Source: Scytalidium lignicola | Lineage: Eukaryota > Ascomycota > Leotiomycetes | Reading direction: 5' to 3' | NCBI GenBank assembly: GCA_002812745.2 | Contig: NCSJ02000085.1 | Coordinates: 78,779-142,778, forward strand | DNA: 64,000 nt | Shown here: positions 1,053-56,236 of the stretch, piece after piece | Layout: each line of letters opens with the position of its first letter | How positions within the stretch are numbered: the first letter of the stretch is position 1 | Notes under the pieces: generated by a model | The model's input: the letters and a program-made list of their open reading frames with translations, nothing else | Told to the model about the DNA's origin: nothing | Databases searched by the model: none | Translations under genes and position numbers: made by a program

Positions 1053-3324
1053 ATGAGCAACTACCAGAATGGTTGGGCATCACAGAGCAAGATACACAAC
1101 GGAGACCATCAGCGGAGCTCAAAGATGCCGGACCTACGAGAGTACCCGGCGCTGGGACTATGTGGCCATTGCAAACAGTTCTTCACCAACACTGAGGCCA
1201 TAGGAAACTCACCGGGCGACAACCGCATATTCCATTCGAGAGAGGGATACAAGTTCGAGCGGTTGCGCAGAGACTTCGAGGCCTCTTTTCTTCTAGGATG
1301 CACCTTCTGCCGGTTGTTTGCTGATGAGGATGCAAGTTACGAGCCAAGTCTAGATTTTCAACGGACCGATTTAGGCTTTGTTCAACCTCGACCAGCCTCG
1401 TATCCGCTGTTGGATGAGAAAATCGTCTTTAATGTCCAGTATCACGGGCCAGCTAATATGCTCACGATTTCAGCCCGGAAAGGACTAAAATGTTATGAAA
1501 ACTTCACTTTTTGTCTATACACTACTAGTGGTAAGTGGTATCTGCTGCAAACATAGGTCTCGGGGCGGATAGTAATACTTTAAACCAATGTGATTAGGGG
1601 ACCCAGCTTCAAGTTTATTAGATATGAAACGAGGGCGGGCTACATTCACTGACATCGGGTCCCCATCCACTTTTGCCTCTATCGGAAGCTTTGTAAAAGA
1701 TTGCGTTACTGGACATGACAAATGTCCCAAGCAGAATCATGTCAAGCTTCCCTCAAGGCTCGTTGAGGTCTCTTCACCAGGTGATCCAGAGTCTGCTCAC
1801 ATCTCGGAGACGAAGGGAGAAAATGGCTCCTATATTGCACTTAGCTACTGCTGGGGTGCCGATCAGCCTTTCAAGACTACAAAAGAGCGCCTTTCAAGAT
1901 ATTTGAAACAGTTGCCTTACTTGTATCTACCAAAAAGCATCATCGACGCGTTTCAGGTCACTCGCAGCCTTGGGGAGCGATACATATGGGTGGATTCACT
2001 TTGCATTATCCAGGATAACGACGCAGATAAAGTAGAGGAGCTAGCGGATATGTTTAACATCTATCGTAATGTTCAACTGGTCATCTCGGCAGCAAATTCT
2101 CGGACTTGCAATGATGGGTTCCTCGTGAACCGTTATGCCAACGTTAAGGGTCTATTCCACGTTCCTGTTCGCGTAGACATGAATTCGAGCGGTTCGGTAC
2201 TACTAAGTAAAGAGTCTTCCTGGGCATCCGCTCACAATTCACTACAACCTATAAACGAGCGAGCCTGGACGCTGCAGGAGAGCCTACTTGCGTCCCGGTT
2301 GCTTATTTTTGGAAATAGCGAAGTCTATTGGAAATGCCAATCCGAATTTCAACCGGTTTCCAGCAACAAGGCGGATGACAAACATAGCAATGGTGGAGAA
2401 AAGTCTAGGGAGGTCACATGGCAGCAATGGTCTATTAAGTCCGGCTATGCACCCTACACACTGAATGGCTTTTCTCCAAAGGTAAGCAGCTCCAACAGCC
2501 AAATTTACGGCCTAGAGAATGCGAGGCCGATATGGCATGCTACTCTGATGAATTATACACAACGTAAATTATCAGACGACGGGGACAAATTGCCAGCCAT
2601 ATCAGCCATTGCAGAGTTCCTCCAGTCTCAATTCCGAACCGACTATCTTGCTGGTCTATGGAGGAGTCATCTGCTTTACGATCTACTCTGGAGTACACAC
2701 CCATTGGGAACGGGCCACTCGGGAAAACGTACAAAGAAATGGCCCGATATGCCCACCTGGTCCTGGGCTTCAATCGACAGCGCCATCTTTGTCGATCTAT
2801 GTCAGTTGCCGCATTGTAAGGTCTTCACGGCCACTATCCTCAACTGCAGCATCCAGCTCTATTCACAGAGTGCGCCATACGGTGCTGTCATGGCTGGCGA
2901 GTTGACTGTGGAGAGTTTCATGAAGGAGACACTACTAGAGTCGAGACTCCCTGGTTCATCAAGGGCAAGTAGGGTGTATGACCGGGATGATATCAACACA
3001 AATATTGGCTGGATACGTTGGGATATCGATGATAACCGCCCATGGGTAATCTCGAATAACGGTAAAGCAAACACTCAGTCCGTGGCGCAGCTCCTCCGAG
3101 ACCCTCAGTCTCCAGATCATCTTATTCGGGCTTGGTACCTGATTCTAAAATCCTCCGAACATTCAACAGACAACTGCACAACGACTAGCGGCCTCGCTTT
3201 GATGCCACATCCAACTCGGTTAGGACGTTACCAACGAGTTGGGGTATGCCATGGGATGAATATACCGGAACTAGAAGACAAGTCGTGGAAGGGGTGTAAG
3301 AGGTTGGAGGTAACTATAGTATGA
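1053..3324 (+). CDS. HET-domain protein (heterokaryon incompatibility), 2 exons
   Basis: Exons are 1053-1530 and 1598-3324. The 67-bp intron has a GTAAGT donor and a TTAG acceptor, phase 1, and the product is 734 aa. The HET domain (PF06985) begins shortly after the splice: it has the ALSYCWG motif, the WVDSLCIIQD motif and the later RAWTLQE motif, in the order known for HET proteins. A Cys-rich N-terminal segment (LCGHCKQF, then GCTFCRLF) precedes the domain, as in many members. HET proteins trigger programmed cell death when incompatible hyphae fuse, and some are related to NLR-type immunity. The partner and allele specificity cannot be told. The ATG at 1053 is the first in frame with the conserved exon. 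No lesion is seen, so the gene looks functional. Confidence 0.9.
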
Positions 3325-8423: not shown

Positions 8424-9148
8424 CTAGCCCGATAGTCTTGATACAAGATCAACACTAAAGTCCCCCCCTTCTCGAATGAGATCCTGAAATTGCCGCTTCG
8501 AAATAAGCTCCTTTTTGTGTAAAGATACTACTTCCACCACAATTTTTCTTGTACCGGCTGAGCTAGTATCATTCGAAGTCAAATACACTTCACGGATACA
8601 ATCAAAGAAGGTGTCACTCATCCACTGCTGTTGCAGTTGCTGTTTGAGCCGTTGGCAAGCTACGATTTTTAGATCTTCTATCCGAAACATGTCTGCGAGT
8701 GCGTAAACTCGAAGGTGTCGAAGTAATTCTAAGTCATCGCCTGTACAATCTCAGTTCGAAGTTTTTTAAGAGAATTGAAATATACCTTCTGAATCAAGAA
8801 ACCCACTCGGTTCATCAGAGTAACTCCCTGTATACATGTATTGAAGTACTCGATAAAGAGCATGAGGGCTATCCTTTTCAAAATTAAACTCGTGTGTTTG
8901 ACTCTCCTTAAAACCGCTCAATAATGCATCCTCAAAGTATGGGCTACATATTCCCAAGACTACCCGGTGCGCTGGAAATGATATCTTCGATTCTCCGATA
9001 TATAATGTGACGTCGGAGAACTTCTTATTGTTGAATAAACTATCACAAACGGTAAATTTCACTATTTAGCCACAGAATTCAGGCTGTTATACCTGGTGAA
9101 AGTCTTCTCGGAAGATGAACTTTGTTTCTGTTGAACAGGCGGTGGCAT
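8424..9148 (-). CDS. Short BTB/POZ-domain protein, 3 exons
   Basis: Exons (minus strand): 9148-9093, 9039-8786 and 8728-8424. Introns are 53 and 57 bp with GTATAA/TAG and GTATAT/TTAG borders. The product is 204 aa. The BTB fold starts at about residue 19: NNKKFSDVTLYIG, then the PAHRVVLGICSPYFEDAL motif, then the HALYRVLQYMYTGSY motif. It continues after the second intron with LLRHLRVYALADMF. This is the common small fungal BTB architecture of unknown function, thought to mediate protein-protein contacts, sometimes as Cullin-3 adaptors. The ATG at 9148 is chosen because the open frame near 9062 begins with GTG and needs an upstream exon. Splicing from the 9148 exon gives a perfect frame. Confidence 0.8.
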
Positions 9149-10158: not shown

Positions 10159-11320
10159 ATGATGGAAACTTCATACGTGATCGACAAGCACGGCGATGTA
10201 GTAATAATCTTNAAAAAATCCAGTAGTTGATTTCGCAGCCTGGAATGGTACCGAAGATGTTGTCTCACTTCCCCCAATAGAACCGGCTCAGGAACAAAAT
10301 GGACAGCTTAGTGGAATATCAATTGAGCAGGTTAGTAATAACTCTTTAGATATCGATTCGGAAAAGTTCATTAAAACCCTTGATCCGCAACTAGAAAGTT
10401 ACTTAGATTGTCAGGTGGGCCAGGTTGAGGATGAGGGGATCCGTATACGAGTCTCCAGCAAACACTTAGTGTTAGCGTCACCAGTTTTTGAAAATCAGCT
10501 TACTGGTAGATGGCAGGAGAGCTATAATCTTCAGAACGAAGGCGCAATAGAGATTGAAATTGATAGTTGGGACCCAGAGGCTTTCTTGATCTTGATGAGA
10601 CTATTCCACGGTCGCAACTTCGAGGTACCGAAGAAAGTTAGCCTCGAACTGTTAGCAAAGATCGCTATTTTGGTGGACTACTATGATTGCCTAGAAGCAG
10701 TTGAGAATTTTCGGGATATATGGCTTGCCTCTTTGAACGAAAGCGTTCCCAAAACATTCTCGCGCGATTTAATTCTGTGGATATGGATATCCTCTTTTTT
10801 TCAAATTCATGATCGATTTAAAATAGTTACATCCATCGCTATAAAGCAAAGCAAAAGTAGGGTTCCATCACTGAGCCTTCCTATCAAAGATCGAATACTC
10901 GGTAAGAGTGGTAGAGCTTCTGCATCATGCACAAAACTAACAACAACCGTAGAGGAAATTAATCGTCAGAGAGAGGCAGCCATCGAGAATATTATAGTGG
11001 CACTTCATAAAAATCTTCATGAATTTCTTATTAATGATAAGTGTTCTTTTGAATGCAGTTCAATCAATCTTGGTGCTCTCCAGAAAGAAATGCGTTCAAA
11101 TGGTCTCCTTGAACCAAAGCCCGAAGCCCCTTTCTTGAGTTTAGATTTTGAAGGACTTGCAAGGGCAGTTCGGTCATTTAAACAACCGCACCATGTTCGT
11201 CCTGTTCATTATGATAGTTGGGGTGGGCTTTCGAATGAACGCTGTAGTAGGCTTTCTTACATATCTCGATTGAAGGAGCTTGATCAAAGTATGATAGGCC
11301 TTGATCTGGAAAACTTTTGA
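10159..11320 (+). CDS. BTB-domain fungal protein (frame interrupted by one N)
   Basis: The reading frame starts at a tandem ATGATG at 10159. It is interrupted only by an N at 10212 next to six As. Ignoring that N gives one continuous frame of 386 aa. The region after residue about 80 shows a divergent BTB domain: SSKHLVLASPVFENQL followed by DPEAFLILMRLFHGRN and LAKIAILVDYYDC. The rest is a helical C-terminal extension typical of fungal BTB proteins that act in the nucleus or are uncharacterised. No intron is seen. Function is unknown. It is divergent from the smaller BTB gene at 8424-9148, and the two differ too much in length and sequence to be a recent duplicate pair. Confidence 0.75.
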
Positions 11321-13076
11321 AACAACCTATTTCTGATTAATTGATTATATCATACAGGTGAGCTCGGTCAAAGTTAGGATTATTAGGAAGAGACTGTTGT
11401 CTTTTATGGATTAAATTCGCTAATAAACTTGGGAATGCAGACTCCAACAGTTTATCAATGAGATTCCCTTTTTACTCTTTCAACTGATTTTGCATTTTCT
11501 ATTGAGGCCCGCTCGGGGATACAGTCCCGAACAAGTTCAGCTACCACTTTATCTGATCGCAAACGCCTGATCGCCGCTTGACGTGAAATATCAGGGTATC
11601 GGCTATCTCTCATGAAACCAACCAAAACTCCGTCGGCCTTAAATTGTTTGTTTGAAGAGAATATCATTGGAAAATCAAGGGTTGAGGGGGAGGGGGGAGT
11701 AGAAGAAGGTCGAAGTTCTATTTTTATAAGACTTAGTTCCTCTGGAAACCCTTTATTTTCATCAGGGATATCTCCTTTTATCATCAAAATTTGCTTCAAA
11801 TTTGCTTCAAATTTGACCTTTGTTCTTTATGTACATTAGTTATGAGTTCTACAATTTTATCGCTATGTTTCCACGGCAATTCCTTCCCGTTGTCAGCTGT
11901 TCCTAAGAATAAGCTGTTTATGCCAACAATTTTTTCTGTGTTATATTATGAATTAAGTGTAGAGAATAACAGACTGACCGGCTGATACGTGTATCCTACA
12001 TGCACTTATGATTCTTTGTTTGAGCCATATCAAGCCCGGAGCCTCTCCATCAATGTCCTGTACTAGCCTCTAGACCAATAGTAATCAATATGGCATGTGG
12101 ATTCTGTTGTGGCGACTGCAAAGATGGAATCAACAAATACTGAGCACCACGTGTGCTCGAAACATTGGGCCGTTAATATTCCGTTAATATTTACTGATAT
12201 CGGAGTGTGTGATGGACCGCTTCTCAAAACCTCTGTCCACTTCGGGAGGCCTCTAGCTTTCATCTGATGAGGGCGCCTAGTGTGAGGCCTCCCGCATAGA
12301 TTATGCAGTGTAACATACACACCAATCTGCAGCCCACCTAACTACGTTCTACTTCAGCAAGGACGTGTTGGGTTGTCATCAATCGAGATTTGATCCTTCG
12401 GTTGCGCTGATTTGGTTTGCGAGACCAATTCAGTTGGAACAGGTCTACCGGTCACCCGATGCTTACAAGAACTGACATTGCATGCGGGGGCGCATCAGCC
12501 TTCGTTGATCTATCTCTAGGATGCAGGATCTGGCTATCTTTTGAAATATAAATACCTGATTTTATTCGTAATTATATAATTTGGTATTTATATGATGTAC
12601 ATGCGACGGTATGCGTCCGTATTTCGCTGGCCGACCTGTATATCAAAATGCACCTCAAGAAAATGTCTCGAAGAATGATTTGATCCCACCACTCCTGTTC
12701 TGGTATGCTCTCTGAAGAGATGTTTGACTCATCAATTTTTAATCAGATTCCTCACGGTGAAGTCCAGTCAATAGTGGCCTAATCCAATGATGGGAATAAC
12801 CTAGCGTACCGTAGTGGTGCATTCTACTAATTGGTCAGCGTCTTGATGTCAGCGAACGTTAAGAAAACTGAAAACATCTTGATTTACTTACGTACAATTT
12901 TTTTCCAACTTTTCCTGGAGTTATGTTAACGATTAAATCTTGTTTAGAAGATGTTGACTTACTTATACTTTAAGAGTTAATTACTTTAATCGCGTATTGA
13001 TCGTCCACTTCTCATTTGACTTTAGAGCTGTAATAAGCCTGTCATAACTAATATCTGTTTCTTCGTTTGTATTAAT
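11321..13076. other. Gene-poor stretch, 1.76 kb
   Basis: No gene can be supported. An open frame at 11455-11784 on the minus strand (first ATG at 11784) encodes about 109 aa with no recognisable domain, and another at 12063-12320 is also featureless. A near-perfect local direct repeat (TTTGCTTCAAA twice) lies at about 11791-11812. Confidence 0.4.
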
Positions 13077-13747
13077 CTAAAAGACCATGATATCGAAGCT
13101 TGAGGTACTGAAGCTAACATTAATCAATATCCCAAGATTGCGATAATACTCAACTACAGACGGATTCAAAGTCTCGAATTCAGTGTATCGGTGCTGAAAC
13201 ATCTCCTCGTTGTCGCCAAGCCTCCCTTCTAACTTTCAAGTCAGGTACCGGTCAATCGCGGTAGACCGTTTGCAGTCAAAGAACAAAACGAGATCTGGCT
13301 CGCCCAGCTGTAAAAGATAAGCTTCATATCAACATGTTGAGCTACGGAGCGCTTGCCTGGTCTTCAGCCGCAATTCCCTGATCCAGCCTGCGCGGAAATC
13401 CATCCACGATGATAGCCTGATAACTTCCCAGCTCCTTTCTGATAACACAAGTCAAGATGTTGACAATTGTTGTAGTAGGCAATAATTTTCCAGTTTCAAT
13501 ACAATCTTTGACTTTAACATTTTGATAATCTTGATCATCTTTCAATGTCCGTAGTAGATCGCCAACTGAGATATGGCGACAGACGTAATCCCGTGCTAGG
13601 AGCTTGCACAGCGTGCCTTTCCCAGAGCCAGGACATCCTGTAATCGGTTAATACTGCACATATAGGTGTTCATAGTTTATATTTACCGATTACATATATA
13701 AGAAGAGCGCGATTTAGAGGCAAAACCGGTATATTACTCTGTTCCAT
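13077..13747 (-). pseudogene. NMP kinase (adenylate/UMP-CMP kinase family), one in-frame TGA
   Basis: Exons (minus strand): 13747-13687, 13637-13357 and 13307-13077, 190 codons. Intron 1 is 49 bp with a GT-AG border. Intron 2 is 49 bp and appears to use a GC donor (CAG/GCAAGC). The P-loop GCPGSGKGT lies at residues 21-29. It is followed by HISVGDLLR and the NMP-binding motif VDGFPRRLDQ. After intron 2 come LVLFFDCKR and a short LID with NPSVVEYYRNLG. This pattern fits the short adenylate/UMP-CMP kinases that phosphorylate NMPs to NDPs. The only lesion is a TGA at 13236-13238 where relatives usually have Arg in the (R/K)KLEGR segment, so CGA probably became TGA. The gene is divergent from viperin with 376 bp between start codons. 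It could be a recent pseudogene, a sequencing error or a polymorphism. Confidence 0.8.
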
Positions 13748-14123
13748 TTTGATGGTGTTATAGGAATGAAGTATGGAACTGTTACAGGCTACTGTAAAGA
13801 GGGGTAAAAAGGATTTAATAGGGATGGGAAGGTCAGAAATTGTAGACTATCAGATACGAAGTGCATCAATACTTGCATCTGTTTGGCACAAACATCTGCT
13901 GGTCGAGCTCAGCCTTCATGCTGTGTGACCTACAAAATGTAGTATTCTGTATCGCACACCCACTCTTTTAACTCTGGAATAAGGACCCAGTTGTCGGGGT
14001 TTGATTCATGACGCATCTGCAAGTCTTTTCACTACTAAAGGGGGCTGGTATGTTCAGTTGGAGCCATGTTTTCCTCCCTTTTATCCATCCACAACGTGTC
14101 ACATACCATAAGCTAAAATAACA
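13748..14123. promoter_or_regulatory. Shared intergenic promoter of kinase and viperin genes
   Basis: A 376-bp gap separates the divergent start codons of the NMP kinase and viperin. No clear TATA box or known operator can be named. A bidirectional promoter is inferred from layout only. Confidence 0.4.
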
Positions 14124-15080
14124 ATGGCTTTCATTCTCATTGCAGTACTACTTATAGCTTTTATCGTCGCCGTCTTGTTTCAAAAGTGGGAATTCCGACT
14201 TGTATCACCAGTCCCGATCTCAGTTAATTACCACTTGACCCGGAAGTGTAACTATGAGTGCGGGTTCTGCTTTCATACTGCAAAGACATCATATATCCTG
14301 CCGTTAGAGGACGCCAAGAGGGGCCTATCACTTCTCAAAAATGCCGGGATGAAGAAGCTGAATTTTGCTGGAGGCGAGCCAATGCTTTATCCGAAGTTCG
14401 TAGGAGAGTTGGCGAGGTATTGCAAGACCGAACTGCAACTAGAATCGGTTTCTATTGTGACAAACGGAAGTGTCCTGCAACCAAAGTTTCTCGAAACCTT
14501 TGGACAGTTCATTGATATTATTGCAGTCTCCTGTGACTCTTTTGATGAGGCAACCAATATCAAGATTGGCCGCGGCAAAGGATCTCACCTGAAGAATCTG
14601 AAACGGCTTCGTATGAGCTGCCAGGAGTACGGGATCAAGTTTAAAGTTAACACTGTGGTGAATAGGTATAATGTCAACGAGGATATGCGTGCGGCGATTG
14701 AAGAGATAGCACCCTTTCGTTGGAAATGCTTTCAGGTTTTAGTTGTCGAAGGAGAAAACGACTCGGCCACCACTCTTCGTGATGCTACTCATTTTGTCAT
14801 CTCTGACGAGCAATTCCGACAGTTCTGCCAGAAACATTCGACTTGCAGCGGCTTTGTAGCGGAGGCGAACAACGTTATGAAGGATTCTTACCTTATCCTC
14901 GATGAATACATGAGGTTTCTCGACAAGGGAAATGACCCTTCTGAGTCGATTTTGAATGTAGGGGTTGGGAGAGCGCTTCAAAGTGTCTTCTGGGACGAAA
15001 AGAGCTTCCTCCATCGGGGAGGAATATACGATTGGACCAAGGCGGCAAATGAGGGTAGCAATAAACTCCTTGACTGGTGA
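14124..15080 (+). CDS. RSAD2: Viperin (radical SAM nucleotide dehydratase)
   Basis: Product of 318 aa, one exon, start in good context (ACAATGG). Residues 1-19 are a hydrophobic membrane segment, like the ER/lipid-droplet anchor of animal viperin. The radical SAM cluster motif is C42-X3-C46-X2-C49 within RKCNYECGFCFH. GGEP follows at 83-86, then VSIVTNGS, ISCDSFDE-like (AVSCDSFDE), IGRGKGSHLKNL, NTVVNRYN and MKDSYLILDEYMRFLD. The C-terminus ends in LDW, which in animal viperin is needed for Fe-S cluster loading by the CIA machinery. Every hallmark of viperin is present, including the C-terminal third that separates it from other radical SAM enzymes. Viperins turn CTP or other NTPs into 3'-deoxy-3',4'-didehydro-NTPs that terminate viral RNA synthesis. 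Which NTP this one prefers cannot be read from the sequence. Neighbours: an NMP kinase upstream (divergent) and a CYTH enzyme 417 bp downstream on the same strand. Confidence 0.95.
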   Translation: MAFILIAVLLIAFIVAVLFQKWEFRLVSPVPISVNYHLTRKCNYECGFCFHTAKTSYILPLEDAKRGLSLLKNAGMKKLNFAGGEPMLYPKFVGELARYCKTELQLESVSIVTNGSVLQPKFLETFGQFIDIIAVSCDSFDEATNIKIGRGKGSHLKNLKRLRMSCQEYGIKFKVNTVVNRYNVNEDMRAAIEEIAPFRWKCFQVLVVEGENDSATTLRDATHFVISDEQFRQFCQKHSTCSGFVAEANNVMKDSYLILDEYMRFLDKGNDPSESILNVGVGRALQSVFWDEKSFLHRGGIYDWTKAANEGSNKLLDW

Positions 15081-15497
15081 ATGGTATACGAAGGGTTTAA
15101 TAGGGGCTATCAACTTGCAGCTGTTGATAATTTGGTCTAGAATTGCAAAGAGATGAATTGTCTATCCTGCTCTAAGATTACTTCTGAAGCAATTGGCTTC
15201 CTAGGATGTTTAATAGTACTTCGTTCGATGATTTTTATGAAATATGGGTTCGTATGTTGTGCTACTGAGTGGAGAGGCTACTGTCCGTATACTACGTAAG
15301 TACATAGTGCAGTTAGCTGATACCTTATCTTAAATACTGGTGCCTGATATGGAAGATAAGGCTGCCATGTTCGGTTACACGTGTAGCAATCAACTGTAGT
15401 TGCTCTGGAGCCACTTAATCATCTCAAGCTCGTCAGCATCGCACTTCTAACAGCAAAACATTCGTCCGCGTGCACCTACCCGTCTATCAAGTAAATC

Positions 15498-16121
15498 ATG
15501 CCCTTGTATGAGGTTGAGCGGAAGTTTGTCTTTAACCCGGCTCTACTCGTGCGCTTTCGAATGAACCGCGGGCAGCCACCATTCCGCTCCCTTATGCCTC
15601 AACGCGTCGAAAGCTTCCAGGACGAGTACTTCGATTCTAGTAACCTATTGTCGAAGAGCGGCATATGGATACGGAAGCGCAACAACCGCTGGGAGGCTAA
15701 ACATCGTCAAAACGGCGACTTTATCCGCTCTTCCTTCTATGAAACTGACAAGATTGACGAAATCAAAAGTTTGATTACCTCTTATACGCATGTAGGATCT
15801 CAGGCTAGCCCGGAGAATAATTTCAGCTTGAAGAGCATCTGTCGATATCATACGAGGCGGGAGATCTTTTTTGCAGACAATCGATTCTCTATTATGCTGG
15901 ACTCTACAGATTTTGGGCATTGGGTTGGCGAGGTAGAGCTCCAGACACAACAGACTGCAACAGCACTCCTAGACATTGACACTTTCATGATGGAGTATGC
16001 ATGGTTCTTCATGAATTACTCAGCTCCGAAAGGGAAAATGACTGCATATTTTGAAAAGTTTGGGTTTCCAGCAGAGGTGCGCATACGACATCGAATCCAG
16101 GCATATGGCACTAACAATTGA
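15498..16121 (+). CDS. CYTH-domain triphosphate tunnel metalloenzyme (thiamine-triphosphatase-like)
   Basis: Product of 207 aa, single exon, covering one CYTH domain. The diagnostic ExExK motif is at residues 5-9 (YEVERKF). Next come the YFDSSNLL strand, IWIRKRNNRWEAK, a basic SICRYHTRREIF strand, then LDSTDFGHWVGEVELQ with the paired acidic residues, and PKGKMTAYF near the end. These alternating acidic and basic strands line the triphosphate-binding tunnel. Relatives hydrolyse thiamine triphosphate, inorganic triphosphate or other triphosphates using Mg or Mn. It lies directly downstream of viperin on the same strand (417 bp apart), so a substrate made by, or feeding, viperin is an attractive but unproven idea. 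No lesion is seen. Confidence 0.85.
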   Translation: MPLYEVERKFVFNPALLVRFRMNRGQPPFRSLMPQRVESFQDEYFDSSNLLSKSGIWIRKRNNRWEAKHRQNGDFIRSSFYETDKIDEIKSLITSYTHVGSQASPENNFSLKSICRYHTRREIFFADNRFSIMLDSTDFGHWVGEVELQTQQTATALLDIDTFMMEYAWFFMNYSAPKGKMTAYFEKFGFPAEVRIRHRIQAYGTNN

Positions 16122-40906: not shown

Positions 40907-43900
40907 ATGGTTCTTCCAAAGGACCAAAGACTTAAGGGTTCAGAGAATTACAACCTTTGGAGCTCTTGTCTTATGGTTTTGCTCCAGTCTAAAGGTCTTG
41001 AAGATCACGTTGGTAATATTGTTTCACCTCCCAAAGGAGATACTCCTGAGTAGAAGGCCTAGCACAAAGATGACGCCAAAACCTATATGTGTCTTAATGT
41101 CAATATCGACGATGAGGCTACGTTATTGATCAAGGACTATGATACAGCAAAGCTTGCTTGGGCTACCTTGAAAGCTCAATATCAGGGAAAAGGTCGCAAT
41201 CTGCAACAGAAGTTCCTGTCTAAGCTGATCTCCGTCAAACATAGTCACTTCAACTCTACAAGCATGTATATTACCGTGTTTAAGTCGATAATAGCTAATT
41301 TGAAGGCTGTCAAAGGTGATAACATAGAGCTTCTCTATCAATTCGTCTTTATTTCTGGTCTTGAGGATGAATATCCTATTTAGGCTGAATGTCAGCGTTC
41401 GGCTGGCAGATCAGAGAAGCTACCTACACTTACTTAACTCATAGAGGACATTGCTGATGAATCTATCTCTGTTACTAGCTCCTCCGGTGCTGTTATGTAT
41501 GGCAAGAATAATTCCAATTCAAGCAATTCAAAAGGCTCTAAGGATGTCAAATGCAACCATTGCAAGAAGAATGGTCACAAGGAATCTGATTGCTTTCAAA
41601 AGCATCTTGAAAAGCTTAAGGAATATAAGGCAAAGCAGTCTGGCAAGAAGAAAGAGAAGAAAAGTGAGGATAAACCTAAGAAGTCTGATTCAAAGGACAA
41701 ATCCAACACTGTCAACCTCAACTCTGCCAGCTTGGTCACTGCCAGCTTGGTCACTGCCAATCCTACGGCTTTCTCCATGTTTACACGCAATCAGTGGATT
41801 GCAGATACAAGTGCTACTGATCACATCACCAATAATCTTAATTGGTTTGATTCTGGCTCTTACTCAACGTGTTCTGATCTTCATCCTATGGAGACAGGTA
41901 ACAGTTTTACTCCGATTGTAAGCATAGGCACTGTTACACTCGAAACCACTTGTTCAGATGGTTCATCTTTCCTCTTGACACTTACTAATGTACAGTATAT
42001 ACCTACATTTCCGGTCAATATTTTCGGAGCCTTAAGACTCCTTGTACAGAATGGTGATGCTCGTGTCACTTCATCTGGTATATTCAATAAGAACAACATC
42101 GAATACAGTGCTGTTATTACTTCCCCTGCCGGTATCTATTTAAGATTAGCATCCATTCCAACAGCACTTATTTCTACATTCCTTGCTCGTCAAACAATCC
42201 CTAGTCTGGACATTATTCATCAACGTTTGGCATATACAAGCCTTGAAGTCGTCAAGAATACAATTAAAGCCACTCTTGGTATCGACGCTGAGCTAGTGAA
42301 GAAGGCCTCTGACGAAGACCCCTTCCTTTGCGAGGCATGTGAATATGGTCACTCTGAAAAGGGCGTTTCTCGACAACCTAGAAAACGATCCACCAAAGTT
42401 GGTGAGGTCTTGAATATCGATGTGTGTACAGTTACACCTGTCAGCTATAATGGGCATCACTACACCACTACTATAGTGGATGATTACTCTGGTGCTACTT
42501 GGGGTTATACCCATAAAGAAAAGAAGGGTGCATATGATGCTATAGTTACACATTGTGCCCTTCTCAAGAATCAGTGGAATATCACTCCCAAATTGATTCG
42601 AATCAATGGTGGAAACGAGTTTGGTGAAGAGAAACTTGATACCTTCTGTAGTCACAAAGGTATTCAACATGAAGAGACTACTCCCCATACACCATGGCAA
42701 AATGGAGTCTCTAAGAGAGCTGAACACTCTATATTTACAAGAACTCACACCATTATGATTGCCACTAGCATTCCTCTTACACTCTGGAACAAGGTGTACA
42801 AATCAGCCATATATATTGGCAATCGTCTTGCAACCAGAACTCTTGTAAGTGATATCACTCCATTTGAAGCCTTTATAAAACAGGTTTCTCCCTCTAGTAC
42901 TAATTGCAAACCTGATCTATCAAACCTTTGTGTTGTTAGTTCCAAAATATTTATACATGTTAACAAGGAACGTTGTGTAACATCCTAAAAGATGGCTTCT
43001 AAGGCTGAAGAGGGCATATTGCTAGGCTTTGAGAGCAACTTGATTTATCGTTGTTAGGTTTCCTCACACACTTACAAACTAGTCCACACTTCTCATATTA
43101 CCTTCACTGAGGGTAATCTACGCCCAGAAGAGCTTGTTGTCAAGGCTTAAGATGCTGAAGCTGTTGCTGAAGCTAGTTCCCCATGTTCTCCACTATCTCC
43201 ACCTTCTACCCCACAAGATGCAGCTCTCCCTCCACAGTTGAACTCCACGTTTGAGGAGGTTGTACAACCTACTGAGGAGGAGGAGGAGGTGTCTGAAGAT
43301 GAGCTTCCTCAGGTAGTTGTACCTACCAAACGCGGTCGTGGTCGTCCAAAAGGCTCAAAGAATAAGAAGCCTGAACAAGGACATACCAACTCCGATATTA
43401 CACACGTTGATCTTACAGAGAATCGTGTTACACGCCTGCAAGCTGCAAAATCAAGCACTCAGGCTCTATCTCCAGTTGTTTCTCCATCTCCAGTCGTTTC
43501 TGGAGCCTTTCCTGATGAAGGAGAGATTCTTGGTCAGCCTCCAGCAGTTGCTATGGCTTATGGCCACTGTCTTACAGCTCGTTCTGCTCTGAATTTAGGG
43601 TATGCCCTAGCTGTGACAGATGATCCCACAGAACTGAAATCTTACAAGGAAGCCCTTGATACTCCGTATTCCCAGGAATGGCAAGATGCCACGGTTACAG
43701 AGCTTAAGTCCTTGGTGAAGTGTAAGACTTTTAAGCTTACTCGGCTTCCTCCTGGAAAGCATGCCTTGAAGGGCCGATGGGTCTATCGCATCAAACGCAA
43801 CGCAGACCGTCAAATTGAACGCTTTAAAGCCAGGTTTGTGGTCAAGGGATACGAACAGCGCCATGGAGTGGATTATGATCAAACTTGGGCAAGTGTTGTC

Positions 43901-45238
43901 AAGTCGGCAACATGGAAGGTATTAATGTCAGTTGCCGCTGTTCGTGGCTGGCAAATACACCAAATGGACGTCGTTACAGCCTTTCTAAATGGTGATATCG
44001 ACGTAGAAATCTATATAGATCTCCCTGAGGGATTCACCGTTGAGGATCTTCGAGCTCTTGGTGTTGAATATGCTGATATCGATGGCGATGGTCACCTTGT
44101 TCTTCTTCTTTTGAAGTCCCTGTATGGACTGAAGCAAGCTCCCCGTTGCTGGCAATTGAAGCTCAATTCGAAGCTAGCTGAAATTGGCTTTCTTCCTCTT
44201 CAATCCGACCCTAGTGTCTTCTTTAATCAACGTCTAAGCATCTTTATTTGCACTTATGTTGACGATTTTCTAGTTATCGGTCCTGGAGGCTCTCAATTCG
44301 ACGAGGTCAAGCGAATTCTCCACGATTTATTCGAAATGATCGATATGGGACCTGCATCCTGGTTTCTGGGGGTGCGTATCATACGGGATTGGGAGAAACA
44401 CACCATTTCTCTCGTCCAGGATGGGTATGTCAAGAAGATTCTTGATCGATTTGGGTACAGCAACGTCAAACCTCACTCTACTCCATTTGAGGCAAATGTG
44501 GCCGAGTTCATGGTCAAATACGACGGTATAGCTACTCCCCAAGACGTTCAGCTTTATTCTGAAAAAGTTGGTTCCGTTATGTATCTCATGACACAAACAC
44601 GTCCTGATCTGTCCTTTCCGGTCTCCCGACTCTCACAATTCCTTCAAAATCCATCTCCACAGCACTTGAAGTTGGTCAAACAGGTCTTTCAGTACCTCCA
44701 GGGCACTCAAGATGTTGGCATCACCTTTGGAGGAGACGGAAACGAAAACCTTGATTTCTATGGTTTCAGCGACTCTGACTATGGTGGTTGCTTGGAAACG
44801 CGTCGTTCCACCATAGGTTACCTCTTCTTTTTGGGTGGTGGACCTATTTCATGGCGCTGCCAGCGATTACCTTGTGTTACTCTGTCCACTACGGAAGCTG
44901 AGTACTGTGCTCTCTCTGAAGCGTCACGCGAAGCCATATGGCTGGCCAGATTGCTGTCAGAACTCCAGGTCAACGTTTCGAGCTCTAAAATCACCTTAAA
45001 TGGTGACAATCAGGGCTCCCTTTCTATGGCTGAGACTACCGAACAATCGAAAAGGGCTAAACACATTGATATCAGATATCACTTTGTACGTGAGAAAGTG
45101 CAATCAGGAGAGATCGTTTTGAATTACGTCCCTACCGCAGATATGGTGGCTGACGGCCTTACAAAAGCTTTGAATTCAGTCAAACATGCAAAGTTTATGG
45201 ATTTGTTGGGCCTGAAATCGATTGCTTTGAATCGATAA
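40907..45238 (+). pseudogene. Copia C gag-pol polyprotein with seven in-frame stops
   Basis: A single frame of 1444 codons starts at an ATG at 40907 and ends at 45238. Stops lie at 41051, 41060, 41381, 41435, 42986, 43055 and 43148; all are TAG or TAA and all fit Trp or Gln codons hit by CpA to TpA change. No frameshift exists. Domains in order: gag; zinc knuckle CX2CX4HX4C (41552-41593); protease (WIADTSATDHIT); integrase (CEACEYGH, then the catalytic core near 42420-42680); reverse transcriptase with YVDD at 44255-44266; RNase H (SDSDYGGCLETRRSTIGY, LSTTEAEYCAL). The integrase HH-CC finger has lost a His, and an expected catalytic Asp before GGNEF reads Asn, so the element is inactive beyond the stops. 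Confidence 0.85.
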
Positions 45239-49993: not shown

Positions 49994-52172
49994 TCACCAA
50001 TCTAAAGGCTTCGTCCCACTCGCCCCAATCCCACTAGGCAACTGAATCTTCTTTGACAGCCTACTACTCGCCTCCTGCAGCTTTTTAAACAACTGCATCC
50101 CAAACTTATCATAAACCTGCAAAAGTCCCCCGGAACTCAGCAACTCCTCCTCAATCTGATCCAGTCTAAATGGGAACGTCTTCCCACCACAACTAATCTC
50201 GCGATCTCGGACATTGATCGCGACCTCAGAGCCTTCTTGCACGAGTGTGTAGAATTCCTCGTCATCGAGCTTGATGCCTAGGAGCCCGTTGTTGGCTTGG
50301 TTTCGACGGTAGATGAAGGCATAGGATTTAGCAATCACGGCTTCGATACCGGCGGCTTGGAGGGCCTTGGGCGCTTGTTCGCGGGAGGAGCCGGTGCCGA
50401 AGGACTTCTCTGCCACGACGATGGTGGCTCCGGCTTGGGCTCTGTCGTAGAATTCGGGACGTGTGTAGCAGAAGGCGCCGCGGCCGAGGGCTTCTCGGTC
50501 GGTGAGCATGCATTTGTCTGTTGGGATGAGACTGTCGGTGTCGACATTGTCGCCGAAGCGCTGGACTTTGCCTTTGATGACGTCTGGGAGGTGGTTGGTC
50601 TTTGTCTCTGAGGAGGATTCTTTTGATGGTTCGGGAGCGGTGCTGGGGAGTAAGGTGGGTTCGGAGTAGTCTGGGGATTTCATTTCTTCATTTTTCCAGT
50701 ATGCTCGCATTTCGTCGTATTCATCTAGGTTTATTCGTTGGAGGATTGGTTGGGGGTCTTTTAAGGACATGGAGAAGCTGGAGGCCGCTACAGTTGCGGC
50801 TGAGGCAATGTTTGCGATAGAGCCTGTTTTTGGAGTTAGAATGAATAGTTTAAGGGGTGTAAAAGTAAAATAACCAAAAAGAGAATAAAAACAAAAACAA
50901 GCAAAGGATAAAAAGGAAAAGGAATATCATACCAGGTCCCATTCTATCGCGGAAATTTCTATTCTGTGATGAAAGCCATACCTCCCCACTCGCAGCTTGG
51001 TCAATACCCATACCAACACAATAACTACACCCAGGAGCCCCAATGGTAAATCCAGCTTTCTCATACTCCTCCAACACACCAAGCCCCTTCAGCCGGTTGA
51101 TAATCTTCGTCGAGCCCGGCGTCACACGTCTTAACCCGGGAGCCGAAGGGGTCATCCCCATCTTCATAGCCTCTCTCAAAACAAGCGCACCCAGGATAAG
51201 ATCCTCCTCAGTCGTCGTACACGCCCCAATGAAACAACCCTGAAGTGGTGGCAGCGTTGCTTCTGTAACAGGAACAACATTATCAGGAGAAGGATACAGG
51301 GCAATAAAATGATTCAATTTGGAGAGGTCAATGTCATAAGAGCCGGCATACTGCGCTCCTTCATCCGGTTGGAAGTAGAGACTATTCGACTTGTGCTTCT
51401 TCACAGGCCGCTTCTCCATGTACTGAAGCGTGACGGAATCAGGTACCACACAGGCGCCAATTCCACCGAACTCGGTCGTCATGTTAGCGATGGCAAATCG
51501 TGCGTCGCAGGAGAGGTATTGGAGTCCTTCACCGGTGTACTCAACCAGTCGGCCAGCCGCTACGGTATTGCGTTTAAGCTCCTTCATGACGCCGAGGATA
51601 ACGTCTTTCCCACTCAGGCCCACTGGAGGTACGCCTGAGAAGTTGATCCTCACAACTTCAGGGACTTCGAGGTATGTCTCGCCGGTAATGACTTGGATGA
51701 CGAGGTCAGTTGGACCCATCCCAATGGCCAGCGCACCTAGTGCTCCCGCAGAGCCCGTATGTGAATCGGCGCCGATGACGAGCATGCCTGGCTGGCATCT
51801 CGCGCGATAAAACTCGGTATGCATGATGGTGGTGTTTGGCGGGCTGTAATTATCGCCCAAGTCCATCTCCTTTGCAATGTTCTCGCAGGACTCGATGACG
51901 GCGCGTTCTCTGGGTCGGTCGTTGACGCGCGGGTCTACGATGTGGTCGGGAGCAAGCCAGAAACGGTCTTTGCGGTGGAAGCCGGGACGACCAAGACGGT
52001 TGTACATCTTTTCCATACCGAACCATGCTGCCTCAGAGGAGAGCAGCCAGTCGGGGGCGATGCGGATGACATCTCCTGGAGAGACGGTGGGAGATTGGAG
52101 GCCGATGGCATGCTGGACGAGGATCTTTTCGCAGACGGTTAAAGGTCTGCGCTGTTGAGTCTCTGCTGCCAT
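49994..52172 (-). CDS. Aconitase-superfamily hydro-lyase (3-isopropylmalate-dehydratase-like), 2 exons
   Basis: Exons (minus strand): 52172-50933 and 50823-49994. The intron is 109 bp with a GTATGA donor and an AACAG acceptor, phase 1. The product is 689 aa, with large and small subunits fused as in fungal isopropylmalate dehydratases. The large half has GADSHT at 134-139 and the three [4Fe-4S] ligands C318 (GACTT) and C382/C385 (GCSYC). The small half has the swivel domain with GTGSSREQAP, its Arg at 561. All catalytic hallmarks are present. It is shorter than the roughly 760-780 aa usual for the leucine-pathway enzyme and diverges at its N-terminus (MAAETQQRRPLTVCEKIL). It may therefore be a paralogue acting on another hydroxy-acid. 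The start sits in a strong CCATGG context. It is divergent from the MFS transporter at 54602. Confidence 0.85.
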
Positions 52173-54601
52173 GGTGGTGGTGGTGGTTACGGTGATAGCA
52201 ATAGCTACTCTGGTTGTGCTTGGGGGCAGAAGGATGAGGTGATGGTTGGGGATGGTGGAAGGGTAGAGGGGTATAAGGTGTAGGCGTCAAGGGATGAGGG
52301 GCAGGTGCAGTAGCCACACGAAGCTTGGGCAGCTTCAGGGTCGACGTGGGATTGCCACATTAACTTTTTCACCTCTAGTCTTAGTTCATGACATTATCTC
52401 GACGGTCATTTGATGACTTCCTTTGTCCAGTCTGGCGGGATCCGGCACGGGGAGTTGTGAGATGCTGCATCTGGGGATTTGCCGATCCGATATAATTCCC
52501 CGCACGGCACCGACAGAGTGGATGAGCACGTGTGCAACGGGCCTGGAGGAGTGATTGTGCGCAGGCATAATTTGATCGGTTCCAACAGAGAGACTTGGTT
52601 GCTGTGTGTGGTTTTGCTTGACACGTTTGGGTTTGTAATCGAGGCGTTCGTGGTGGAGGCAAGCAAGCTTCTCCTAAGACTTCTTCAAGCCTTTTTTCAA
52701 GCCTTAGATCTAAGACGGTAGCATCCGAACAGCCTGGTTCTCTGAAGCCTCTCTCTTTCGGATGTGCGGCAACAGGCAATTAGGAGTGTAGCTATTGGGT
52801 CTCGGTGTGTCTGGGCGTCTCTGGGCGTCTCTGGGCCCTTGTTGGGTTGCTGGTCCTGCGCAAGAGTGCCGTCGTGGCAGCGTGGTCGACCGCATCTGCC
52901 GTCCTGAGCCCACGGCAAATGAGTGATGGTCAACTGCCGTTGGTGTGCGTAGGTGGTCCTGTGAAGACCCGAATAGCTTCAACCACAAAGGCCAAGGCAA
53001 CGAACTGCTGGACCGAGAAAACAATAGTGAATTAAATGGATACCATCTTCCCCATTTTACTCCTTGCGATTCTTGACGTGGGGCCATGGGGCCTTTATGG
53101 AGTTTCAACCTTCAGCCCATGGGGTATTACGGGGTCCAATGTTTGCTCCCCAAACTTCTTTCCCCAACTCTCGCCTCCCCAGTGAGCCCACCTTTCACCA
53201 ATGTAGTCCATCCATACCGTATGATCTGTACCTGCAGGGTTTCTCTAAGTGCTGACTTGACTTTCCCCATCATTCTTCTGATTTATTGATTGATTAATGA
53301 CTCTTCTGCTGGAAAAGGCCAGGTAAAAACATACTTCTAATGTTGGACTACACATACACGTGACATACTACTCCCTCTTTTCTTATGCACACTCATACTC
53401 GTTTGATAATATTACTCGATCTGCTGGCAGATGATGGCTAATTCGGGCATGATTAAATTAATTATAGATCTTGGCGTCTCTTATGTCCCCGGAGGCGGTG
53501 AACACAGCGTAGCTAGAACGCTCCTTTTAATGGTACCGAATTCCCCATATCGAATGTACGTTACGTGTCCTAGAAACTGCCTACTACACTACTATGTGTT
53601 GCATATCGGTCAGATGGCAAAACTGGATGGCAAATGGATGTATATATCCTTGCGTGCATCATCTAAATTCTACCACGTGGTGGACGGCAGCTCCGTTGTA
53701 AGCTGTAACCACAAGCGCGGGTCATGAAATTGCCATCTTCGTTGCTTTTTCCACGGACCATGGCTGATCTTCTACATCACGTGAAACTGGTCTGTGGCTT
53801 TCAGCTGTGGAATTGTTGTGTGGATCTAGGTTACTTGGTGCTGTAGCATTCATTCGGCTGTTGTCTCCATGTTGGTGTTGATTGTGCAAGTAATAGATGT
53901 TGCATTCGCTATACACGCACAGCACTTGTACAAGTACTTCGAGGTCGCACAGCAGTTCATATACTGCATATGTACTGCACTTCTCCCTCCAACTTCCTTT
54001 TTCGCAGCGAGTACATTGTTTCTCTTTTGATTCTCTCCATTCTTACTGTGATTCGCCACTCTCCTTTCCACTCATGGGTTTGACCCAAGCGGCAAAACAA
54101 ACCAAGTATAGTGGGTCGTAGCTAAAAATTTAGGGGGCTTGGATATCCCATCTATCCACACAACCAATGACCATGCTTAGCTTAGCTGTCTCTCTCTCTC
54201 GCCCCCAGCGGCCGAACCAGACTGGGGTAAAGGTCATCTCCCCGGCCGTGCCCCATACAAAAAAATCCTGCACGGGGAAAATGGGTAGCATTAATTGTAT
54301 TGCTGAGGGGTCTGTGATATGAAGTACGAAGAAAACCCAGTTGGCGGTTTTCTGCAGGGATTTTCTTTCACTATCCTCAGCCTCCCTTCTCCATCCAACC
54401 CTGCACTCACTCGTGGCCGTGTCTGCGTGCTTTCGTATATGTATATAGTCTCTCGTTGCAGACCTCTCTTCTCTCCCTTCCCGTCCTTGTAGATCTCCCT
54501 CCCCCAGATTCTCACCCCTCAACCCCAAGTCTGCACCGAGCACGAGTTTCAGAAGTTCAAAAGGGTTTTCCTCCTACTACTGTTGCTGCTGCGAAAGAAA
54601 G
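52173..54601. promoter_or_regulatory. 2.4-kb divergent intergenic region
   Basis: This region lies between the divergent aconitase-like and transporter genes, so it should hold both promoters. For the transporter there is a TATA-like string (TATATGTATATA) near 54436 and a long pyrimidine-rich stretch (54361-54600) typical of highly expressed fungal genes. The many short frames here, including an ATG-initiated one of 98 aa at 53431-53727, show no recognised domain. Confidence 0.5.
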
Positions 54602-56236
54602 ATGATCAGCAACGAACGCAATACGCCTCTTCTGGCGAATTGGAAATGTCTCATCATCTGTTGCGTCGTTTCCATGGCCAACTGTCAGTATGGCTTTGAT
54701 ACTGCTGCCGTCGCTGGCTTCCAGGCCATGACCGGTTTCCTTCAGGTTTTTGGATACAAGGATCCCACCAGACCTTCCGGGTACAACATCCACACCAAGC
54801 CCCAGCAACTTATCAGCTCCTTCCTCAACGTCGGTACCATCATTGGCACCATCTTGACTGGTCCCTTCGCTCACCGATTCGGCCGGAAACCAGCCATCTG
54901 GTTGGCGTGCGTTGTCTCCCTGGTTGCTTGCGGCGTCCAGGTCGGCTCGACTTCTCTTGGTGGTCTCTACGCCGGAAGAATCATCCTCGGTCTGTCCAAT
55001 GGCTTCTTCATCACCTTCTCCAACGTCTATGCTGTCGAGGCCGCTCCACCACATCTTCGAGGTATTTTGGTCTCTTTCTTTGGCTTCTGGGTCAACATCG
55101 GCAGCATCCTCGGCGCTGTGGCTGATAACTACACCAAGAACAAGATCAACAAGCTATCCTATCAGATCCCGCTTGCTTCGCTCTTTGCCATCCCAACCCT
55201 TCTGGCCTTCTTCATGATCTTCGTCCCCGAGTCCCCGCGTTGGCTGCTGCTCCAGGGTCGTGAAGCCGAGGCCCGTCACTCCCTTGAGCGTCTTAGGGGA
55301 ACATCGTTGACACCTGATCTCCTGGATGAAGAGTTTGTTGAGATGCAGCGTGGTATCGAGGAGGAGAAGGAACTCTCTGGCTCAGCCTCGCTCTATGACA
55401 TGTTCAAGGGAACGGATCTGAGACGAACTTTCCTCTGCGTTATTGCCATTGCCTCGCATGCCGCCTCTGGAATCTGGTTCATCATATCCTACGGCACATT
55501 CTTCTTCCAAGTGGCCAACATCGCCAACCCCTTCCAGGCCTCCATCCTCTCGAATGTCATGGGGTTTGCCGGCGTCCTCGTCGGCATGTACCTTACGCAA
55601 AATCTCTTCGGCCGCCGACCCATGATGATGATTGGTTCTGCTGGTTGTGCAGCTTGCATGTTAGCCATTGCCGTGGCTTACACAGTTTCGCCAAATTCCC
55701 AAGCAGCTGGACGTGCCTTAGTTGGTTTCGCACTCATGTTCAACTTCTTCTACAATGGATTCGTGGGCACAATCAGCTGGCCGGTTGCCGGTGAGATTGT
55801 CAGCTCGAGATTGCGTGTTCTGACTATGGGTCTGTCGACCGGTGTTAATTACTTCTTCAATTGGTTGATCTCGTACTGCTCACCTTATTTCCTCAATACC
55901 ACCGATCTTAACTGGGGTCCGAAGTATGGTTATATCTGGGCTGGTTCCAACCTGATCTGTCTCGGTAAGTTCAAAACACATACCCCAAGACTTTAAATTT
56001 TTTTTTACAAAATCGCATGAACTAACTCTCGGATTCTAGTTGTCTTCTTCCTATTCATTCCTGAGATGAAGGGACGTTCTCTCGAAGAGGTCGACGAGAT
56101 GTTCCAGAATCGCGTGCCTCGACGACAATTCCCCAAGTACCAGTGCGTGTCATCGGAGCGCGCTCGGGAAATGACTGTAAAACATACCGATGAGAACAAG
56201 GAAGGAGCTGTACAGATCGAAAATGCTCAAGTTTAA
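54602..56236 (+). CDS. MFS sugar-type transporter, 2 exons
   Basis: Exons 54602-55964 and 56040-56236, with a 75-bp intron (GTAAGT donor, branch-like CTAAC near 56021, TCTAG acceptor, phase 1). Product of 519 aa with about twelve membrane segments. Sugar-porter marks are present: GPFAHRFGRKPA between TM2 and TM3, GRIILGLSNGF, PESPRWLLLQGR after TM6, GRRPMMM, and PEMKGRSLEEVDEMF after TM12 (the family consensus is PETKGR). It imports a hexose, disaccharide or related polyol in symport with protons at the plasma membrane; the substrate cannot be told. The N-terminus is short before the first helix. The C-terminal tail after about residue 455 is hydrophilic. Confidence 0.9.

Follow-up and report, generated by a model that had tools for sequence, protein, structure and literature searches.

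A conserved fungal viperin cassette containing a nucleotide kinase gene and a CYTH triphosphate tunnel enzyme gene

The pairing of viperin with a nucleotide kinase is an already known theme, and 15% of bacterial viperin genes adjoin a kinase similar to CMPK2 (PMC11249213). Among fungal viperins TtRSAD2 has been found to dehydrate both CTP and UTP (PMC9642334), and the species of the solved viperin structure PDB 6B4C is Trichoderma virens (PMC8124187). Here a viperin gene of the ascomycete Scytalidium lignicola is described from a 64,000-nucleotide stretch of contig NCSJ02000085.1 (assembly GCA_002812745.2), referred to below as the window. The gene lies between a divergent gene for a nucleoside monophosphate (NMP) kinase of the ADK/uridylate kinase family and a tandem gene for a CYTH-domain triphosphate tunnel enzyme, the latter being the new element within the literature searched. 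These three genes constitute a conserved fungal viperin cassette (Table 1). To our knowledge it is not settled how cells that make chain terminators protect their polymerases and subsequently clear the terminators, and a conserved triphosphate-cleaving neighbour of viperin is a concrete candidate for clearing or guarding against such compounds.

Linkage of the three genes in other fungi was established by matching contigs, through their lengths and not their names, across protein searches with the viperin, kinase and CYTH sequences, together with locus tags. As 120 of 3126 viperin matches and 120 of 143 kinase matches were used, contig counts are lower bounds and an absent link is not evidence of absence. 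Viperin and kinase genes were present on the same contig in at least 17 cases including the window, with the same species given for both in 15 of the 17, and these contigs include representatives of Trichoderma, Podospora, Aspergillus alliaceus, Periconia and Melanomma, which we take to span several fungal classes. All three were found as separate genes on at least six contigs, again including the window, and a seventh from Lachnellula suecica carries the kinase together with a single 517-amino-acid model joining viperin and CYTH that may represent an annotation fusion. Of ten CYTH matches on contigs longer than 8 kb, six are accompanied there by a listed viperin and eight by a listed kinase. 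In Botryotinia calthae the CYTH, viperin and kinase tags are consecutive with viperin in the middle, and the viperin and kinase tags are consecutive in Claussenomyces and Trichoderma gracile. The genome of Rhynchosporium agropyri contains two cassettes; in both, the kinase and CYTH tags differ by two and the contig also carries a viperin. A previous annotation of this DNA, the sequence-only reading, had staked its proposal of a three-gene module on the genes being neighbours in related genomes, and in several other fungi contigs are indeed shared and tags are consecutive or nearly so. The three-gene linkage is not chance.

Table 1. Coordinates of the cassette genes and of other features of the window.
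Feature	Position	Strand	Remarks
Viperin gene (radical SAM nucleotide dehydratase by family)	14124-15080	+	single exon, 318 aa, intact frame
CYTH-domain triphosphate tunnel enzyme gene, thiamine-triphosphatase-like	15498-16121	+	single exon, 207 aa, intact, in tandem with viperin
NMP kinase gene, ADK/uridylate kinase family	12981-13747	-	four exons, model fitted to relatives
Kinase exons	13747-13687, 13637-13357, 13307-13119, 13076-12981	-	
Kinase introns		-	49 bp GT-AG, 49 bp GC-AG (second), 42 bp GT-AG
In-frame TGA, kinase exon 3	13238-13236	-	interrupts this copy in the assembly
Divergent intergenic stretch, kinase start to viperin start	13748-14123		376 bp, from gene coordinates
HET-domain (heterokaryon incompatibility) gene	1594-3324	+	
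BTB/POZ-domain ORF	8766-9065	-	
BTB/POZ-domain ORF	10208-11320	+	
Copia-type retroelement ORFs	41438-45238		judged by eye
Aconitase-family large and small domain ORFs	49994-52286	-	
Sugar transporter	54449-55996		
Zn2Cys6 regulator	59536-60381		
aa, amino acids; ORF, open reading frame.

The predicted viperin begins with a hydrophobic segment and contains the CX3CX2C motif (C42, C46 and C49), GGEP at residues 83-86 and a C-terminal LDW. Solved viperins align to residues 24-318, that is nearly the full length (best E 1.5e-121), and PADLOC pVip models also match the protein (best E 1e-70), confirming the earlier description of a full-length viperin with these three motifs. An L-[DE]-W terminus is present in 16 of 19 aligned fungal viperins, and therefore gives the Scytalidium protein no distinguishing mark. 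The small-domain ORF of the aconitase family found elsewhere in the window likewise ends in LDW. A search of the source genome (46.85 Mb in 664 contigs) produced the window gene as the only full-length viperin match, the other match being a radical SAM stretch of 28% identity; no second viperin was found in the genome, and the remaining radical SAM matches differ. By family the enzyme is predicted to convert a nucleoside triphosphate (NTP) to its 3'-deoxy-3',4'-didehydro form (ddh-NTP).

The CYTH gene is represented in public data by a 175-amino-acid model (P0001) starting at an internal Met, but the alignment with relatives begins at the first Met of the 207-amino-acid reading. The protein contains ExExK, W57xRxR, DxY and ExE motifs. 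Across 20 aligned CYTH proteins the metal and phosphate residues E5, E7, K9, E145 and E147 are invariant, as are both Arg residues of the W/YxRxR motif associated with organic substrates, the aromatic residue of which is W in 16 and Y in four. Positions of the aromatic pocket were assigned by alignment to W57 (16 W, 4 Y) and F80 (18 F, 2 Y). The protein displays the tunnel fold of triphosphate tunnel metalloenzymes, and both profile and fold comparisons identified animal thiamine triphosphatase as its closest relative, with 20-24% identity in fold alignments. These motifs and the fold support a predicted action on an organic triphosphate. The sequence-only reading had proposed that a CYTH enzyme in tandem with viperin processes or detoxifies triphosphates; the tandem arrangement was confirmed and an organic triphosphate is supported as the putative substrate. 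A class IV (CyaB-like) adenylyl cyclase, for which HFxxxxExExK is the criterion (PMC8233210), was ruled out as the protein starts MPLYEVERK with no HF before ExExK. A protein search for a second CYTH in the genome returned the window gene alone, and since a genome search with PF01928 gave no match whatever, not even this gene, a distant second copy might escape detection.

The kinase gene lies head-to-head with viperin and upstream of it, as previously noted, and the stretch between the two start codons is a possible shared promoter. The ORF containing exon 2 matches PF00406 (E 2.2e-21), at a threshold of E 0.001 its only matches are ADK, AAA_17 and AAA_18, and the P-loop GxPGxGKG is present as GCPGSGKG. 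The public model (P0143) is a partial protein of 118 amino acids; kinases of relatives, for example P0141, are complete. The sequence-only reading had ended the gene at 13077 and had missed an in-frame TGA in exon 3; the TAG at 13077 is the end of the third intron, with the gene reaching 12981. An intron at the TGA is unlikely because relative-like sequence sits close on both sides of it, and as the stop lies in the conserved C-terminal half the kinase is probably non-functional in this assembly, the Scytalidium copy probably being truncated or dead. Sequencing error is a possible source of the TGA. Repeat-induced point mutation (RIP) was considered as its cause and rejected, the cassette having TpA/ApT of 0.82 and (CpA+TpG)/(ApC+GpT) of 1.23, which by general thresholds for these indices is not RIP-like. 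A DNA search of the genome detected no second copy of the linked kinase, and an intact housekeeping-type UMP kinase is present (locus L009). A second UMP-CMP kinase-like gene of the genome (L010, 1309-2178) also contains a single in-frame TGA and is otherwise open, with the L009 copy being intact; paralogue decay and an assembly base error are both possible for this stop.

The complete relative P0141 is closest to animal adenylate kinase 1 (AK1) and to yeast uridylate kinase, with little to choose between the two. A 36-row tree contains 18 linked kinases, of which 17 have a listed viperin on their contig and one, from Tricladium, has CYTH on it. All 18, together with 10 rows of undefined linkage, are separated by a branch with 100/100 support from the genome's UMP kinase, those of plants, one kinase of Allomyces and four further rows. 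This split indicates that the linked kinases form a family distinct from the housekeeping enzyme. Of 21 aligned rows, 19 have a SVGD, SIGD or SLGD motif; the remaining pair, both plant UMP-CMP kinases, have SAGD and SSGD, and SAGD is also the form in the UMP kinase encoded by this genome. GFPRxxDQ occurs in 14 of the 21 and also in yeast uridylate kinase and the genome's UMP kinase. A preference of the linked kinase for UMP/CMP or for AMP is not readable from these motifs. CMPK2 has a thymidylate-kinase-like domain. The parallel with vertebrate CMPK2 drawn in the earlier annotation is at most functional, a nucleotide kinase beside viperin, the kinase being of ADK type from its PF00406 match and the position of P0141 near AK1 and uridylate kinase; this contrast is not clean, as some relatives, P0142 included, and plant UMP-CMP kinases carry PF02223 (thymidylate kinase) as one of several overlapping precomputed domains.

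Considering the three families together, viperin would convert CTP and/or UTP to chain-terminating 3'-deoxy-3',4'-didehydro nucleotides and the linked kinase would supply pyrimidine nucleotides as substrate feed, a role in which the intact housekeeping UMP kinase may replace the interrupted gene in Scytalidium. The least certain step is that of the CYTH enzyme, which would take up an organic triphosphate into its tunnel and remove the terminal phosphate, the most probable target being the ddh-nucleoside triphosphate or the NTP pool feeding viperin. This would limit, or bring to an end, the exposure of the fungal polymerases to the terminator, and kinase and CYTH enzyme would meet at the diphosphate level so that the product could be raised and lowered. 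A viperin cassette operating in this manner, with removal of the terminal phosphate from ddh-NTP or its precursor pool and pyrimidine nucleotides supplied by the kinase, is the reading we favour, tentatively and at somewhat under an even chance. The narrower proposal of a dedicated ddh-NTP phosphatase, recruited in one fungal lineage from a thiamine-triphosphatase-like tunnel family, is doubtful; if true, it would make this the first viperin system known to include its own off-switch or self-protection enzyme. The cassette would also show that the fungal kinase-viperin pairing arose with a kinase family other than that of CMPK2. The antiviral (mycovirus) role proposed in the sequence-only reading is putative.

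A number of observations count against the favoured reading. Thr182 is present in all 20 aligned CYTH proteins where mouse thiamine triphosphatase has Met195 (from one gapped plug-helix alignment), a residue contacting thiamine in that enzyme (PMC4641920), and Pfam CYTH (PF01928) matches 10 of the 20 alignment members (best 1.8e-8) but not, at E 0.1, the window protein. Two of the ten CYTH matches on contigs above 8 kb have neither partner among the matches listed, and pairwise identities of viperin and CYTH proteins are weakly correlated (r = 0.31; 28 pairs from eight loci). The kinase is interrupted in the Scytalidium genome itself, from which it follows either that an intact linked kinase is unneeded or that the module is decaying in this species. 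Thiamine triphosphate, tripolyphosphate, NTP and ddh-NTP cannot be separated as CYTH substrates from sequence, and the literature searched contained no assay of such a CYTH enzyme.

The serious rival, which we consider unlikely, is a thiamine triphosphate module in which the CYTH protein is a true fungal thiamine triphosphatase, a side activity of the AK-like kinase makes its substrate and viperin is present as part of a shared stress response. Thiamine triphosphatases are the closest relatives by profile and fold, W57 and F80 occupy aromatic pocket positions in the alignment, the protein search revealed no second CYTH copy in the genome and in animals thiamine triphosphate is a product of adenylate kinase 1 (PMC8615392). 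However, according to the same review fungi have so far yielded no specific thiamine triphosphatase (PMC8615392), Thr182 replaces the plug-helix methionine throughout the alignment, and viperin is left unexplained even as its B. calthae tag falls between the other two. That the CYTH protein is instead an inorganic tripolyphosphatase or an RNA 5'-triphosphatase helper, clearing tripolyphosphate or acting on viral RNA triphosphate ends, is rather improbable; its complete set of catalytic residues would suit such a role, and tripolyphosphatase activity has been reported for CYTH proteins from bacteria, plants and an archaeon, with RNA triphosphatase activity reported from fungi (PMC8615392, PMC8233210).

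Two further explanations concern the cassette as a whole. One fungal viperin has been hypothesised to make antiviral natural products (PMC9642334), and clustered enzyme genes resemble a small biosynthetic cluster, so that a ddh-nucleoside might be made, dephosphorylated and exported rather than acting as an intracellular antiviral. Against this, scanning of 10 other ORFs of the window (short and multi-exon genes lying outside the scan) produced one transporter, which is for sugars and lies about 38 kb distant, the nearest scanned ORFs encode a BTB protein and a protein without a family, and the viperin C-terminus, common among fungal viperins, is nothing special here; export of a natural product is given little probability. 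Accidental neighbourhood of genes without a common function is already disfavoured and we regard it as highly improbable. Among named species the CYTH link occurs in Leotiomycetes only, the species concerned being presumably all of that class, and the two CYTH matches without listed partners would fit such a reading, but the two cassettes of R. agropyri, the presence of all three on at least seven contigs (window and joined model included) and the two further viperin-kinase pairs with consecutive tags oppose it.

Elsewhere in the window, the HET-domain gene (PF06985, E 9e-29) lies approximately 9.7 kb from the kinase, with the two BTB/POZ-domain ORFs between them. On the other side of the cassette, positions 18001-42000 have a RIP-like look in 2-kb bins, with TpA/ApT above 1 in 12 of 12 and (CpA+TpG)/(ApC+GpT) below 1.03 in 8 of 12 by the thresholds applied to the cassette, and copia-type ORFs are also present. 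The sugar transporter and Zn2Cys6 regulator are located beyond the aconitase ORFs.

Prokaryotic viperin loci were examined for a similar arrangement using the best 80 of 147 viperin relatives with flanks of up to 6 kb, shorter at contig ends. No CYTH was detected among flanking ORFs of at least 60 amino acids at these 80 loci with a profile of the 20 fungal CYTH proteins. As this profile may miss distant CYTHs, genomes of chosen loci were also searched with PF01928, and a CYTH gene was present in 23 of 26, the matches being outside the viperin locus ranges with one exception. This match (G008) falls numerically within the range of locus L035, where the DNA shows no CYTH, and a motif scan of the flanking ORFs gave two matches, neither CYTH-like on inspection. 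The literature searched contained no viperin cassette with CYTH, a mention in Shomar et al. 2024 or Bernheim et al. 2021 being possible, and in the available text of papers viperin and CYTH as whole words co-occur only in an Epstein-Barr virus study.

In comparison with known systems, the animal 25-kDa THTPA has ExExK, W/YxRxR and ExE in common with the window CYTH protein but differs in having a plug-helix Met where Thr is found here, and a viperin neighbour is noted only for the latter. Arabidopsis TTM1 and TTM2 likewise couple a P-loop nucleotide kinase to a CYTH domain, as a uridine kinase fusion (PMC8615392; PDB 7z67); these are single proteins with no viperin, and their CYTH domains lack ExExK and ExE (PMC8233210), both of which are kept in the window protein. 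TtRSAD2 of Thielavia terrestris and the T. virens viperin 6B4C belong to the same enzyme family as the Scytalidium viperin, which aligns with 6B4C over nearly its full length; the available text of their accounts names no partner genes (PMC8124187, PMC9642334), whereas the Scytalidium viperin has two. The same pairing of viperin with a nucleotide kinase is seen in prokaryotes, where the kinase is adjacent or fused, and in the vertebrate RSAD2-CMPK2 pair, and the fungal cassette differs from both in drawing its kinase from the ADK/uridylate kinase family and in the addition of a CYTH enzyme.
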